From NCBI GenBank assembly GCA_015058945.1, contig SVBF01000017.1:1-64000 (forward strand): 64,000 bases of DNA. The letters run 5' to 3'. This stretch comes from Erysipelotrichaceae bacterium (GTDB lineage: Bacteria > Bacillota_I > Bacilli_A > RFN20 > CAG-826). The notes under the pieces are model-generated. The model was not told the DNA's origin. It saw nothing but the letters and a program-made list of their open reading frames with translations, and made no database searches. Position 1 is the first letter of the stretch. The number at the start of each line of letters is the position of its first letter. Shown piece by piece: positions 3,801 through 47,597 of this stretch. Both the position numbers and the translations under genes were made by a program.

Positions 3801-3863
3801 CGCGAAGCATGTGCGTTGCGCGTTTTCCAAAAGGCGGTATCATCTTGCCCGGAGGAAAACACA

Positions 3864-5234
3864 ATGTATCGCAAAAACGCATGGAAAAAATACGAAGACA
3901 AAGCCCCGGTAATGGACTTTGCCGAAGGCTATAAGGAGTTCATCTCCTATGGCAAAACCGAACGCCTCGTCGTCAAGGAAAGCATCGAGCTTTTGGAGAA
4001 GGCGGGATTTAAAAACGGCGAAAAGGCCTCCTCGCTTAAGCCCGGGGACAAGGTCTATTTCATTAACAAGAACAAGAACGTCGCCGCCTTCATCATCGGC
4101 AGCAAACCGTTAAAGGAAGGCCTTCGCGTCCTTGGCGCCCATATTGACTCCCCACGCCTCGACCTCAAGGAGAACCCCTTCTATGAGGATCATGACTTCG
4201 TCTTGGGTGACACCCATTACTACGGCGGCGTGAAGAAGTATCAATGGGTTACCATTCCCCTCGCCCTTCACGGCGTCGTCTGCAAGAAGGACGGGACCCG
4301 CGTTGAGGTGAATATCGGCGAAGCGGAGGACGATCCCGTCGTCGGCATCACCGACCTCTTGATCCATCTTTCCGCCGATCAGCTCCAAAAGCCTGGCGCG
4401 AAAGTCATCGAAGGCGAAAACCTCGATATCTCGCTTGGCTCCATCCCCGTCAATGATGAGAAGGAAAACGAGGCCGTCAAAGCCAACGTGCTCCGTATCC
4501 TTAAGGAAAAGTATGGCGTCGAGGAAGAAGACTTCATCTCCGCCGAAATCGAAATCACCCCCGCCGGCAAAGCCCGCGATTATGGTTTGGATCGTTCCAT
4601 GATCGCCGGTTATGGCCATGACGACCGCGTCTGCGCCTATACCTCGTTGAAGGCGTTGCTCGACACCAAGGAAGTCGAATACACCGGCGTCTGCATCCTC
4701 GTGGACAAAGAGGAAATCGGCTCCGTCGGCGCGACGGGCGCGCAGTCTCTCTTCTTCGAGAACCTTATCGCGAGACTCGCCAAACTCACCGGCGAGAACG
4801 ACGCCCTCTTCTCCGCCAGGGAAATCATGGAGAACACCCGCATGCTCTCCAGCGACGTCTCCGCCGGCTATGACCCGCTTTACGCTTCCGTTAACGACCC
4901 CAAAAACGCCGCCTACTTCGGCCAAGGCTTGGTCTTTAATAAATACACGGGCTCCCGCGGCAAGAGCGGTTCCAACGACGCGAACCCCGAATATTACGCC
5001 TGGGTGCGTCGCACGATGGACGAAGCGAACGTCCATTGGCAAAACGCCGAACTCGGCAAAGTCGACCAAGGCGGAGGCGGCACCATCGCCTACATCCTTG
5101 GCAACTACAACATGAACGTCATCGACGCGGGCATCGCCGTCCATAACATGCACGCCCCGATGGAAATCGTGTCCAAGGTCGACGTCTACGAGGCCTACCT
5201 CGGCTACAAAGCCTTCCTCGTCGCGAAAGACTAA
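3864..5234 (+). CDS. M18 family zinc aminopeptidase
   Basis: A 456-residue cytosolic metalloaminopeptidase of the M18 (aspartyl aminopeptidase / aminopeptidase I) family, which removes N-terminal residues from peptides using two metal ions. Visible family motifs are LGAHIDSPRLDLKENP (metal His and Asp), DKEEIGSVGATG (catalytic Glu region) and a C-terminal GIAVHNMHAPMEIVSKVD with a metal-binding His. An open frame extends 16 codons upstream, but GGAGG sits seven bases before the ATG at 3864, which fixes this start. It is followed by a strong bidirectional terminator shared with the convergent ABC gene. Family length is normal. Confidence 0.92.
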   Translation: MYRKNAWKKYEDKAPVMDFAEGYKEFISYGKTERLVVKESIELLEKAGFKNGEKASSLKPGDKVYFINKNKNVAAFIIGSKPLKEGLRVLGAHIDSPRLDLKENPFYEDHDFVLGDTHYYGGVKKYQWVTIPLALHGVVCKKDGTRVEVNIGEAEDDPVVGITDLLIHLSADQLQKPGAKVIEGENLDISLGSIPVNDEKENEAVKANVLRILKEKYGVEEEDFISAEIEITPAGKARDYGLDRSMIAGYGHDDRVCAYTSLKALLDTKEVEYTGVCILVDKEEIGSVGATGAQSLFFENLIARLAKLTGENDALFSAREIMENTRMLSSDVSAGYDPLYASVNDPKNAAYFGQGLVFNKYTGSRGKSGSNDANPEYYAWVRRTMDEANVHWQNAELGKVDQGGGGTIAYILGNYNMNVIDAGIAVHNMHAPMEIVSKVDVYEAYLGYKAFLVAKD

Positions 5235-9064: not shown

Positions 9065-9853
9065 ATGGATAATGTTTGGCTAACAGTGTTCGGCTTTGCC
9101 TTGATATTCCTCGCAACGACCCTCGGCGCGGCTTTGGTTTTTTTCTTTAAGAAAGATCTATCGCCCAAGGCGAATACGATTTTCCTTGGATTTGCCGGCG
9201 GCATCATGATTGCCGCATCCGTCTGGTCTTTGCTTCTCCCCGCCATCGAATCTTCGCAGGACTATGGCAATTGGAAATTCGTGCCGGCCGTGATTGGCTT
9301 ATTGCTCGGCGCCCTCTTCATGGTCGTCATCGATAAGCTCGTCCCCCACTTCCATAAAGGAACAGGCGAGGAAGAGGGATTGCATTCCTCCTTGTCCAAG
9401 CCCAAAAAGATGTTTTTGGCCATGACCATACATAATGTTCCTGAGGGCTTAGCGGTCGGCTTTGCCTTTGGCGGGGCCGCCTTGATCGGAACCAACGAGG
9501 CGTTCCTCGCCGCGTTAGGCTTATCGATCGGCATCGCGATTCAGAACTTCCCCGAGGGAGCCGCGGTTGCCTTGCCGATGGTCGGTCAGCTAAACAGCAA
9601 GCATAAAGCCTTTCTCTACGGCGCATTAAGCGGCATCGTCGAGCCCATCGCCGCCATCATCGGTTATTTCTTGGCCTCCGCCCTCGCCAGCGCGATGCCT
9701 TGGCTGCTCGCCTTTGCCGCCGGAGCCATGCTCTTCGTCGTTGTTGAGGATCTGATTCCCGACGCCCATTTGGAAAGCCACCCCCACTTAGGAACGTGGA
9801 GCATCGTCATCGGCTTTGCTTTGATGATGGTCCTCGACGTCGCGTTAGGCTAA
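9065..9853 (+). CDS. ZIP family divalent metal transporter
   Basis: A 262-residue polytopic membrane protein of the ZIP (ZupT/GufA-like) family, expected to import zinc or other divalent metals. About eight hydrophobic segments are visible. The family's metal-binding helices are clear: HNVPEGLAVG in one helix and QNFPEGAAVALP in the next, supplying His/Asn/Glu and Gln/Asn/Glu ligands, and VVVEDLIPDAH near the C terminus. GGAAAGGAG lies eight bases before the ATG. It is a single-gene unit with its own promoter. The large RNA gene begins about 160 bases downstream on the same strand, and no strong terminator is visible between the two. Confidence 0.92.
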   Translation: MDNVWLTVFGFALIFLATTLGAALVFFFKKDLSPKANTIFLGFAGGIMIAASVWSLLLPAIESSQDYGNWKFVPAVIGLLLGALFMVVIDKLVPHFHKGTGEEEGLHSSLSKPKKMFLAMTIHNVPEGLAVGFAFGGAALIGTNEAFLAALGLSIGIAIQNFPEGAAVALPMVGQLNSKHKAFLYGALSGIVEPIAAIIGYFLASALASAMPWLLAFAAGAMLFVVVEDLIPDAHLESHPHLGTWSIVIGFALMMVLDVALG

Positions 9854-9932
9854 ATCATTAATTAGATTTAACGCACGCGCATATATGAGAGCAAAAAAGC
9901 CAAAAATGATCGATAAACAGAAATTGAAAATT

Positions 9933-9949
9933 TAGATACTATGTATCTA
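9933..9949. promoter_or_regulatory. Perfect palindrome upstream of the large RNA promoter
   Basis: TAGATAC-TAT-GTATCTA, 7-bp arms around a 3-bp centre, lying 33 bases before the -35 box of the large RNA. A-tract DNA (runs of AAAA and TTTT) fills the space between, like an UP element. A dimeric regulator site is the natural reading; the protein is not identifiable. Confidence 0.45.
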
Positions 9950-9982
9950 CAAAAGATTTTCAAAGATTTTTGCAGAAAATGC

Positions 9983-10010
9983 TTGCACACCTTTTCAAGG
10001 AGAGTATAGT
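9983..10010 (+). promoter_or_regulatory. Promoter of the large structured RNA
   Basis: TTGCAC (9983-9988) and TATAGT (10005-10010) with a 16-base spacer, preceded by A/T tracts. The predicted first transcribed base is near 10016, exactly where the first hairpin begins (GUUCC 10016-10020 with GGAAC 10025-10029). Confidence 0.7.
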
Positions 10011-10015
10011 TATGT

Positions 10016-11475
10016 GTTCCGCAGGGAACGCCAAGCCGCAAGGCAGGGCGAAACTGCTGAACCACCTTAACAAAGTTAAGGTGCGGAGAGCGCCAGATGC
10101 TCCTAGGGAACTTCGGTTCCTCAAAGGTCTGCTTCCTCGAAAGAGGATGAAGCGAATCGGTCCTTGAATCCGGTTCGTCAAGGAACACTCCGCCGCCAGG
10201 TAAACCTGGAAATGGGAGTCCGGTCGAAGAAACCCGAGGCTGAAACGCTTCGAGAGGGAAACGATCGCGAAGGGCTCCTCGTCTGGGACGAGGGAAGCCA
10301 CCGCCGAAGCAAAACCCTGGCGGCTCGTAAACGAGAAAGAAAGGGGGCGGCGGAAAGCCCTGAAAAGGGAATATCCGGAAGACGGGATCAACGAACTTCG
10401 TCGAAGTCCCGCGTGGAACGATGACCTCCACCTCGTAATCGAGAAAAAGAATCATCTGGCTCTCGTGAAAGCTTGCCAAAGCCGTAGCAAAAGCCAAAGG
10501 GTAACGCCCGGGAAGAATCCTGCTTCCACCGGTAAACCGGAAAAACCTGGGATGACGGCAAGACCAAGGCTGAACTCCTTGATCAAACCGCCCAAGAGGA
10601 GAAGGCAATTTCCCCTCGCGGAACGAGAATCCGCTCGATAGGATCGAAGAACAACCTCAAGCGTAAACCCCTCCTCTTCATTGAGACGGGCCACCGCTTC
10701 AAGGGGCTATAGCGAAAGCTGATGTCCCCGGCGAAAGTCGCATCGCCGTCAGGTATACCCCTGAAACTCAACTCAGCGAACTGGATGGTAACATCCGAAG
10801 GAGAGAAAGACTCCCGGCCCCGCGGAAAGGCCCCGGTAAACCGAACAATCTCCGCTCCTCCCAAGACCGTGGCCCAATAAGCCCTCCCCTTGGAAAGGTA
10901 GAAACCCCCACAGGTTCCTCGAGAATTCCCTCGAGCCGTGAAACGGAAAATCGGAATTGCGAACATGTCGGTCTGGCTTCGGCCCCTCAGGCATGTCCGT
11001 GAACACTTGGAAATTCATAACCAGGTTGGTGCCCAAAGAGGCCCGGCGCGCGGTAAACCGCTGGAAAGGCCTCTTCCTCAAGGAGCGATCCTTGGGTGAG
11101 TGAGGAGACCACGGTCCCCTCGGGAAGTCGTTCCACCCCTCAATCGTGAAGTCGGAACGTGGTAGAGATACCTGAGCGAACGAAGACGTAACTCAGGATC
11201 GACATCGAGACCCATCAGGAGCGATCCGAAGTGGGCCTAGGAAGATAAGAGCTCTTCTCAGCGGTACACCGCAGAAACAAAAACTTGCCCCTGAACGGAA
11301 CGGATGATCAAGCATCCGCTTCAGTAAGGAACGAATCCCGCAAGGGATGTGGTTGGTTGGAATCTCCCACGAGGTAAACCTCAAATACGAAATGTCCCGT
11401 CAAAATTGGAGCTATACAGGACGTTAAATCGGAAAGCCGAGCGACACCACGCAGCGATGCGTGGCGTTTTCTTTT
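10016..11475 (+). ncRNA. Candidate giant structured non-coding RNA (about 1.46 kb)
   Basis: No frame here gives a protein-like sequence, yet the plus strand is packed with short perfect hairpins. Examples: CACCTTAAC/GTTAAGGTG (10063-10083), GGAAC-UUCG-GUUCC (10107-10120), CCTC-GAAA-GAGG (10135-10146), CCTCGTC/GACGAGG (10277-10293), GGATG-GUAA-CATCC (10783-10796), GGC-UUCG-GCC (10975-10984), CAAGGA-GCGA-TCCTTG (11079-11094), CGGATG/CATCCG (11301-11318) and ATCCC-GCAA-GGGAT (11335-11348). GNRA and UUCG loops and A-rich single strands between helices are typical of compact folded RNA. At least nine hairpins close a UAAA-like loop and most are followed by an A-rich stretch. Longer stems enclose some of these, for example AAGAGGCC (11036-11043) with GGCCTCTT (11068-11075), CCGCCG (10301-10306) with CGGCGG (10348-10353), and ACCACG (11108-11113) with CGTGGT (11158-11163). 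A promoter precedes it and an intrinsic terminator ends it. I see none of the hallmarks of rRNA, tmRNA, RNase P RNA or a group II intron. It is longer than OLE, ROOL or GOLLD as I recall them. Function unknown. Confidence 0.8.
11447..11475 (+). terminator. Intrinsic terminator of the large RNA
   Basis: Perfect 7-bp stem CCACGCA (11447-11453) and TGCGTGG (11458-11464) closed by a GCGA tetraloop, followed by TTTTCTTTT (11467-11475). It lies just before the stop codon of the convergent gene. Confidence 0.88.
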
Positions 11476-11483
11476 ATGCGCGC

Positions 11484-12320
11484 CTATTCGCAGTGTTCTT
11501 TGAGATAGGGAATCGCTTCTTCTGGCGCTCCGTCTTTACGTAAGAACAAAAGCATCTTCCTTCCGTCTTTGATCGAGCGCAGAACGATCGCGTCTTTGGC
11601 CTCGAGCAAAACGCGGACCAAGCCATAGGCCACCTCATATCGTTCTTCTATCTTGGAGCCGTCCTCACTGATGGCGAAGCCTTGAATATGGTCCTCATAT
11701 AGTTTGACGCTCTTGCTCTGCTCGAGCTTCTTTTGGATGCGCGATGGCATAAGAAAGATAAAGACGTGGCCGCCTAAGGCCAAACATAGAGCGACGATCA
11801 TCGTGACGCGGATCGATAAGGCGACCGGATTTAGGAAGTAATAGACCGTCACCCAGACGAGCGCGAGGGTCAAAACGCCTAATGCGGCGACATAGATCCA
11901 CGAACAACGGACAAATGCCTTGAAGACGGTCGAATACTCAATCCCGTTTTTGGCAGAAGGCACGATCCATAACGCGCCGCTTTTGTCCGCGGGCTTCTTC
12001 TCTTCTACTGAGGCGGTTTCCTTTGCCGGCCTCTCCATCATAGGCTCGGGCACTTGGCCATTAGCCTTCTTTTTGGATAGATAGGCAGCGAGGTCCGCGA
12101 TGAAATAAACCAGGACGAAGACCGCGATGAATAGCAGCGATACGACCGTCATGGTTTGGGCTTGGCTCGGTTGCCAAGACGTATCCCCCGCGTTTCTTGC
12201 GGCGATGCCGATGCCGATGACCGTAAAGAACGTCGCGAATAACGCGACCTGCGTCGCCACCATCAACGAAAAGGCGATGATGTGCGAAGGCGTTTTCCAA
12301 TAGGGTTTTAGAGTCTTCAT
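11484..12320 (-). CDS. Four-helix membrane protein with YcxB-like C terminus
   Basis: A 278-residue membrane protein. Hydrophobic segments are seen near residues 12-37, 55-82, 138-165 and 170-195, in two pairs. A charged linker rich in Glu, Lys and Pro (about 84-115) separates the pairs. The last 70 residues, from KLYEDHIQGF to the end, are soluble and resemble the C-terminal domain of YcxB-type proteins, where a beta-rich module follows paired membrane helices. No catalytic motif is visible. It converges on the large RNA gene, and its stop codon is nine bases from that gene's T-run. Confidence 0.65.
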   Translation of the reverse strand: MKTLKPYWKTPSHIIAFSLMVATQVALFATFFTVIGIGIAARNAGDTSWQPSQAQTMTVVSLLFIAVFVLVYFIADLAAYLSKKKANGQVPEPMMERPAKETASVEEKKPADKSGALWIVPSAKNGIEYSTVFKAFVRCSWIYVAALGVLTLALVWVTVYYFLNPVALSIRVTMIVALCLALGGHVFIFLMPSRIQKKLEQSKSVKLYEDHIQGFAISEDGSKIEERYEVAYGLVRVLLEAKDAIVLRSIKDGRKMLLFLRKDGAPEEAIPYLKEHCE

Positions 12321-47423: not shown

Positions 47424-47448
47424 ATACCTATTAAATATTTATAAAGAA

Positions 47449-47528
47449 AACCACCGCACAGGGGAAGATACGTTAAGGCTGCTACGTTCCCGTCCTGACC
47501 TGGTTCCCTACCCGCTCCTCGCGATGGC
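47449..47528 (-). ncRNA. ffs: Small signal recognition particle RNA (4.5S-type)
   Basis: The minus strand reads ACCAGGTCAGGACGGGAACG then TAGCAGCC, the Ffh-binding domain IV of SRP RNA (compare ACCAGGUCAGGUCCGGAAGG in E. coli 4.5S RNA). The ends pair: GCCAUCGC at the 5' side with GUGCGGUGGU at the 3' side. A TATAAT box on the minus strand (47540-47535) is seven bases before the predicted 5' G at 47528. A U-run follows (UUUUCUUU). The length of about 80 nt means it lacks the Alu domain found in Bacillus. Confidence 0.92.
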
Positions 47529-47597
47529 GGAGTAATTATAGCCTCTTCCGCGAACAAAGCCATCTCTATCCGCGTTCCTCGCGTTACAATGTTTGGC

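Follow-up and report, generated by a model that had tools for sequence, protein, structure and literature searches.

Evidence for a free-standing gene for a structured RNA of about 1,460 nt in an Erysipelotrichaceae bacterium, very likely the type member of a new family

The window, as we call here the whole stretch of 64,000 nt of an Erysipelotrichaceae bacterium that was analysed, very likely contains at positions 10016-11475 of the plus strand a free-standing gene for a highly structured non-coding RNA, whose transcript is inferred without RNA-seq data. The predicted molecule has a size of ~1,460 nt with roughly 60-70 helices, and its gene comprises the following elements, each given with its evidence:

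9931-9954, plus strand: palindrome TTTAGATAC-TAT-GTATCTACAAAA, a putative operator with its dyad at 9933-9949 and its centre 63.5 bp before the -10 box (genome-wide specificity, spacing)
9950-9982, plus strand: A/T-tract region from the operator to the -35 box, UP-like and probably curved (recurring A-tracts)
9983-10010, plus strand: promoter, with -35 TTGCAC (9983-9988), 16 bp, and -10 TATAGT (10005-10010) (kept across homologues)
10016-11475, plus strand: structured non-coding RNA, ~1,460 nt (homologues, covariation measured against nulls, no conserved ORF)
11444-11475, plus strand: intrinsic terminator ACACCACGCAGCGATGCGTGGCGTTTTCTTTT (terminator scan and conservation)

A generic promoter scan was silent on the TTGCAC/TATAGT pair, which lies below its cut-off, and in the absence of transcript data the promoter call rests on conservation across homologues: a comparable pair of hexamers precedes nearly all of them, with a spacer of mostly 16 and in a few cases 17-18 bp. 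Copies whose 5' flank is readable have A-tracts at similar places, and a role of this region as an UP-like element is inferred. At the other end of the gene, the terminator scan found the stem CCACGCA-GCGA-TGCGTGG (11447-11464) followed by CGTTTTCTTTT, within a tail that reads TTTTCTTTT, and this terminator is kept in complete copies of the RNA. Elsewhere than in RNA genes and copies truncated by contig ends it was met in one case only, after a toxin-antitoxin pair behind another copy of the same genome (see below); an isolated terminator in G018:C136 corresponds to a contig end within another RNA copy.

The window copy sits among ordinary non-phage genes, with a ZIP zinc transporter upstream and a 278-aa protein without any Pfam match downstream, and where the neighbours of other RNA loci could be identified these were ordinary genes as well. 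No conserved neighbour gene exists among the 36 RNA loci, and tRNA genes are nearly absent from the 18 flanks examined. An M18 aminopeptidase (window 3816-5234) is the sole frequently recurring neighbour, found near the RNA at 8 of the 36 loci, and this proximity likely marks the ancestral locus of the gene. When the region after the ZIP gene was compared for an empty site, synteny was seen to vary among relatives. Two genomes of different genera carry a tmRNA gene within ~3 kb of the RNA (L037 5665-6065 and L124 5945-6343), a proximity that is likely due to chance. The sole Rfam match in the window is a bacterial small SRP RNA on the minus strand at 47445-47530.

Chance ORFs do occur within 10016-11475, none of them conserved among homologues. 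Depending on the copy, the longest stretch free of stops measures 107 to 349 aa; shuffled versions of the window copy average 165 and reach 297 at most. Of the gap lengths in the alignment a mere 12.6% are divisible by three, and together these observations rule out a protein gene. Much of this had been anticipated in an initial annotation made from the letters alone. Its promoter was confirmed in position and by conservation, and its roughly 1,460 bases without a credible protein and its perfect terminator stem with a tail held equally well; of its placement between a metal transporter and a membrane protein, the former is the ZIP transporter and the latter has no Pfam match.

A BLASTN search with the 1,460 bases against 61 genomes revealed homologues in 19 of the 31 genomes of the same genus and in none outside it. 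A covariance model, R1, was built on the 155 best-conserved positions, which correspond to the most conserved stretch of the RNA:

11005-11160, plus strand: GAAUUCAUAACC loop, GGCGCGCGGUAAACCGCUGG and GGAAGUCGUUCCACC (basis of model R1)

This model finds the family at E-values down to 1e-43 and extends its distribution to 4 genomes of a second genus in the same bacterial family. R1 detected no copy in 12 members of the own genus, among them the genome of highest completeness (G004, 100%). Further matches were absent from the rest of the bacterial family and, beyond it, from 279 order-level genomes, a phylum sample of 392 and a class sample of 395. An 18-base pattern drawn from one of the modules described below (A5) was scanned against 84,980 prokaryote species and returned 27 contigs, all of them true family members. 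Their record titles point to uncultured Bacilli, Bacillales or Erysipelotrichaceae assemblies, and where a host is given it is always a ruminant: roe deer, water deer, goat or reindeer (rumen, omasum, abomasum). Among 2.9 million viral contigs this pattern had no match, and BLASTN with 378 conserved bases gave none in phage and plasmid collections. These negatives, together with flanks nearly devoid of tRNA genes, rule out an RNA of phages, plasmids or tRNA islands.

Altogether, ~36 homologues were found, among them 29 complete core copies of 1,387-1,473 nt and four divergent ones of 1,521-1,603 nt. Median pairwise identity among the first 26 copies is 64% with a nearly constant length. Carrying genomes have one to three RNA genes; these are minimum counts, because assemblies break at the RNA repeats. 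In this regard, several contigs end at or within RNA genes (G026:C29, G026:C38, G018:C26, G018:C136, G017:C95, G017:C205 and G019:C1), and the identifiable relatives are, or resemble, metagenome assemblies. The own genome carries three full-length copies, on contigs C16 (the window), C7 (76% identity) and C10 (71%), which differ from each other by about 24-30% (identity 71-76%). Copies within a genome are non-syntenic, and the two genera are intermixed in the RNA tree.

Some particular loci deserve a mention of their own. The divergent subfamily (L060 7575-9170, L061 6160-7726, L128 4434-6032 and L127 6086-7601; 1.52-1.60 kb) has 42-48% identity to the core copies in sequence alignments and the same arrangement of promoter and terminator, and genome G010 carries one copy from each subfamily. 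The RNA of G003 at L040 (G003:C198) is flanked on its left like one of the G023 copies and on its right like the other (compared with L041, which is G023:C11), and its sequence is 98% identical to the second G023 copy; such mixed flanks could possibly reflect recombination between RNA copies, or an assembly artefact. Directly behind copy b of the own genome (L032 8211-9055, C7) there is a pair of RelB antitoxin and PIN_3 toxin genes, followed by a second copy of the last 39 bases of the RNA, terminator included, at 97% identity. The pair looks as if inserted at the 3' end of copy b, which remains a possibility only.

The covariation of the paired positions is overwhelming. RNAalifold predicted 411 pairs from 23 sequences, with 88% of the cells canonical and 273 pairs showing double compensatory changes, and 399 pairs from 27 sequences, of which 284 had double changes and 87.5% of the cells were canonical. 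In the latter alignment, the canonical cells fell to 37-46% once the 3' partners were shifted by 1-3 columns. Moreover, in eight null alignments simulated with the same tree, root sequence, substitutions and site variability, the consensus energy was -228 to -248 kcal/mol, in comparison with -598 kcal/mol for the real one, and only 34-62 pairs had double changes, compared with the 284 of 399 observed. We also tested all pairs of columns with a script of our own, similar to R-scape without being R-scape itself (G-test with average-product correction, 20 phylogenetic nulls). This analysis gave 23 column pairs at E<=0.05 and 41 at E<=1, and of these 41, 38 fall inside the predicted structure, one is adjacent to it and two come from a pseudoknot. 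Selection maintains the RNA fold, with covarying helices spanning its whole length. The supported helices are almost all local, with spans of up to about 50 nt; neither RNAalifold nor the covariation test gave good support to any helix spanning more than ~50 nt, including a long-range closing helix. The 3' third of the RNA (11005-11410) contains long invariant segments: GAAUUCAUAAC, GAUAAGAG, AAAAACUUG and GGAAGUCGUUCCACC.

A closer look at the fold reveals a recurring module, in which a hairpin with a 7-9-nt loop is followed by a second hairpin, whose loop is usually of the G-U-N-N-A-C type; after an A-rich joint comes a strand pairing with the first loop. Six such modules were put to a swap test, which compares how well the loop of each copy fits the strand of that same copy and those taken from other copies. 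These modules, together with a long-range loop-loop contact and the most frequent hairpin, are as follows:

10413-10456, plus strand: module A1, loop GATGA (10420-10424), GUAAUC hairpin, A-rich joint and strand TCATC (10452-10456) (swap z=-6.3, 0/20000 permutations)
10511-10555, plus strand: module A2, hairpin, CCGGUAAACCGG hairpin and strand to the first loop (z=-3.5, 17/20000)
10618-10660, plus strand: module A3, pseudoknot (z=-4.7, 0/20000)
10729-10784, plus strand: module A4, loop TCGC (10738-10741) with GCGA (10776-10779) across a GUAUAC hairpin (z=-7.8, 0/20000)
11236-11288, plus strand: module A5, CCUAGG-GAUAAGAG hairpin, GUACAC hairpin and AAAAACUUG (conserved in all core copies)
11349-11412, plus strand: module A6, same layout, with conserved GGUUGGUUGGAAUCUCCC and GGUAAACC (z=-2.0)
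10396-10400, plus strand: loop CUUCG, 5' partner of the long-range contact (covaries with 11181-11185; z=-6.1)
11181-11185, plus strand: loop CGAAG, 3' partner, 785 nt downstream (covariation, swap test, blind segment test)
10197-10208, plus strand: G[UAAA]C hairpin (loop count against shuffles)
10324-10335, 10529-10540, 11050-11061, 11261-11272 (UACA) and 11371-11382, plus strand: further G[URNA]C hairpins (loop count against shuffles)

Four modules, A1 to A4, pass the swap test and A6 does so weakly, while four mismatched controls reach |z| values of at most 1.2. Relatedness of the sequences may somewhat inflate these z values, and the controls share the same relatedness. In A1 the pairing of strand and first loop is supported by both the alignment and the swap test, the pairing of A4 is also the top covarying helix off the predicted structure, and that of A2 emerges as an off-structure covarying helix too. 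It is thus very likely, as inferred from the swap tests on sequences, that A1-A4 form local pseudoknots of one recurring design. Module A5 shares the layout and is almost invariant, and this very invariance leaves its pseudoknot without swap-test evidence; the one in A6 is possible, with weak support.

The contact between 10396-10400 and 11181-11185 occurs in the variants CUUCG/CGAAG, CUUCA/UGAAG, CUUCC/GGAAG and CUUUG/CAAAG. When 2,808 pairs of unpaired segments were tested blindly, the top five included A4, A1 and this 785-nt contact, along with a local helix and a pair that is hardly complementary at all. When the pairing loops of a copy were matched to the copy itself or to a same-genome paralogue, the energies were -9.1 against -5.1 kcal/mol for A1, -4.9 against -2.5 for A3 and -6.7 against -4.7 for A4. 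The loops of these three modules mismatch the paralogues, and therefore their pairings should take place within one molecule or between identical molecules; the 785-nt contact is not copy-specific in this sense (-9.1 own, -8.4 kcal/mol paralogue). The dominant loop of the RNA is G[URNA]C, mainly G[UAAA]C, present 5-8 times per copy with a perfect 4-bp closing stem, compared with 0.035 in dinucleotide shuffles. Perfect complements of the invariant loops are absent from the 16S rRNA locus of the own genome, save for chance hexamers.

Upstream of the promoter, a perfect palindrome with arms of 7-9 bp was found in 19 RNA copies, with 53.5, 62.5-65.5 or 73.5 bp between its centre and the -10 box, in steps of a helical turn; it is absent in 14 of the 33 copies with a readable 5' flank. 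Allowing <=2 mismatches, TTTARATAYNNNRTATYTACAAAA has exactly three sites in the own genome, one before each RNA copy, and the exact core TAGATACNNNGTATCTA occurs in 3 of 31 genomes, solely before RNA genes. Among copies that bear the operator, the arms are identical within a genome and symmetrically changed between species (TAGATAC, TAAATATC, TAGATATC, TAGGTATC and others). In two cases the arms track the genome and not the relationship of the RNAs: copy c of the own genome is nearest in the tree to a G018 copy, yet has the palindrome arms of its own genome, and two G018 copies on different branches have common arms. Because the palindrome keeps its helical phase, is specific to the RNA genes, and has arms uniform in each genome and symmetric between species, a dedicated dimeric activator acting in trans at a class-I-like position is a likely inference, for which no protein has been identified. 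An rRNA-like promoter was rejected, since the region upstream of the own 16S gene, which lies at a different place from the RNA gene, has no palindrome.

How does this RNA relate to those already known? At the gathering threshold, Rfam 15 (including ROOL, GOLLD, OLE, HEARO and the raiA motif) gave no match in the window copy or in 14 homologue loci, and relaxing the cut-off to an E of 5 retrieved nothing but eukaryotic and viral models at chance level, two of them within 9850-11500, which rules out a known RNA family. Covariance models of SSU and LSU rRNA, group I and II introns, RNase P and tmRNA did not match the RNA either. The criteria of a large ornate bacterial RNA are met by the extensive covarying structure with pseudoknots and, judging from conservation and without transcript data, by its own promoter and terminator and the lack of an ORF. 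Among the closest in style is ROOL (Rumen-Originating, Ornate, Large), likewise a large free-standing structured RNA with pseudoknots and no known protein partner, also first known from the rumen, whose kissing loops were detected by covariation (PMC12286853). However, the examples of ROOL cited have 520-659 nt, in comparison with ~1,460 nt, and ROOL is encoded by phages, prophages or megaplasmids, often near tRNA islands, whereas the new RNA lies among ordinary genes, in one to three divergent copies with their own operator and no Rfam match. Of the three ornate classes with a cryo-EM structure GOLLD is the largest; it has a universally conserved 3' region and forms a homo-oligomer (PMC12286853); many of its members are just over 800 nt, found in phages and prophages near tRNA islands, and no covariance model relates it to the new RNA. 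OLE is also a free-standing ornate RNA of Bacillota, but has 577-610 nt and known protein partners, and HEARO/OMEGA, another large ornate class (343 nt in the example cited), works with an endonuclease (PMC12286853), whereas no conserved neighbour gene accompanies the new RNA. The supermotifs of Lactiplantibacillus plantarum (LPSM) resemble it in being multi-copy, lineage-restricted and long intergenic sequences of 800-1000 nt (PMC5643018), but they are shorter and L. plantarum gave no match in the scan of 84,980 species. The sizes and contexts of ROOL, GOLLD and OLE are taken from PMC12286853 and PMC5643018. ROOL, GOLLD and OLE have only a general style in common with this RNA.

No description of the new RNA was found in the literature searched, although our coverage left out the 2017 catalogue of 224 candidate RNAs and most papers behind subscription, and an earlier description is not excluded. 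Within the sources searched, we consider it very likely to be the type member of a new family. The initial annotation had proposed a new class of large structured RNA, which is supported by the lack of Rfam matches, the existence of homologues and the massive covariation, with the transcript still unobserved. Its alternative of a larger member of OLE, GOLLD, ROOL or HEARO found no support in sequence or covariance models. The dozens of hairpins it saw are far beyond chance by covariation, and its emphasis on GNRA and UUCG loops was partly right: both occur, but the dominant loop is G[URNA]C. The Rfam and BLASTN searches it suggested were run, the former on 10016-11475 giving no known class and the latter revealing homologues, and neither of the two sequence-level outcomes it regarded as refuting, an absence of covariation or a conserved protein frame, was met.

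The function of this RNA is unproven. It has been reported that ROOL, GOLLD and OLE form RNA-only oligomers through kissing loops and A-minor contacts (PMC12286853), and by analogy with them we would propose a structural particle, monomeric or homo-oligomeric, a reading that seems to us slightly more apt to fail than to hold. Each pseudoknotted module would fold on its own. Contacts between loops, together with A-rich joints and the many G[URNA]C and GNRA loops, may pack the modules into a compact body, which would probably be monomeric or homo-oligomeric and need no obligate protein encoded nearby, in the manner of ROOL and GOLLD. Copies would keep their local pseudoknots to themselves, as the loops of A1, A3 and A4 suit their own copy over a paralogue, and the RNA would be transcribed independently under its dedicated activator. 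In favour of the particle are the supported structure with its recurring loop motif, a family of constant size, the lack of a conserved neighbour gene as obligate partner and the self-matching loops of A1, A3 and A4. Against it, assembly is only an analogy, there are no RNA-seq data, the palindrome is missing from 14 of 33 copies, and the 785-nt contact, not being copy-specific, could be intramolecular; unlike rRNA, moreover, the molecule shows no well-supported helix of more than ~50 nt, and a flexible string that needs protein to be compacted is equally possible.

This last objection leads to the main rival, a protein scaffold, in which the RNA would be the backbone of an RNP with proteins encoded elsewhere, as for OLE, and the G[URNA]C modules would be repeated sites for one protein. 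Such an explanation is possible: an identical loop recurring in each copy is expected of a multivalent protein-binding RNA, and with only local helices a protein could be required for compaction. No conserved neighbour gene appears in 36 loci, however, and there is no candidate protein. That the RNA acts in trans as a regulator or serves as a sponge, its repeated loops titrating a protein or an RNA, we regard as unlikely; these loops and a dedicated operator, which suggests condition-dependent synthesis, would fit this idea, but the constant length of 1.45 kb and the extensive covariation are more than a sponge requires, and the 16S locus offers the invariant loops no perfect complement beyond chance hexamers (mRNA targets were outside the comparison).

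A selfish or mobile element is similarly improbable. In that case the gene would spread among intergenic sites with the palindrome and the terminator as its ends, in line with its patchy presence (19 of 31 genomes), several non-syntenic copies per genome, two genera mixed in the tree, a unit bracketed by palindrome and terminator, and a toxin-antitoxin pair sitting between two terminator copies behind copy b. Recent transposition is nevertheless contradicted, since the own-genome copies differ by about 24-30%, and the palindrome is helically phased with the promoter and missing from 14 copies, whereas the fold is selected in all of them. Mobility of the IS200/IS605 type was rejected for the own genome, which has no Y1 transposase; across the genus this enzyme is present in 7 of 31 genomes without tracking the RNA. 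A ribozyme, whose catalytic core would lie within the ornate fold at the invariant 3' third (11005-11410), is also unlikely: the long invariant segments there would speak for it, but no self-cleaving or splicing family of Rfam matches, and neither exon-like flanks nor conservation of a cleavage site was seen.

The structural particle remains our preferred reading, and it allows a bolder version, to which we give rather less credit than to the particle itself. The family would be an entirely new class of giant RNA of 1.4-1.6 kb, built nearly exclusively from self-contained tandem pseudoknot modules with G[URNA]C hairpins and not from long-range helices, kept in one to three versions per cell under a dedicated activator, and forming particles with about the mass of 16S rRNA per chain. 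Large ornate bacterial RNAs fall into few known classes, and for three of these assembly in the absence of protein has recently been demonstrated (PMC12286853). The new RNA is unrelated to those three and almost twice the length of the largest, and it offers an alignment of ~30 complete and diverse sequences, along with a supported fold and a clear site of regulation. With such a multi-copy, aligned and fold-supported family, the size limits of RNA self-assembly and the purpose of ornate RNAs therefore become directly testable.
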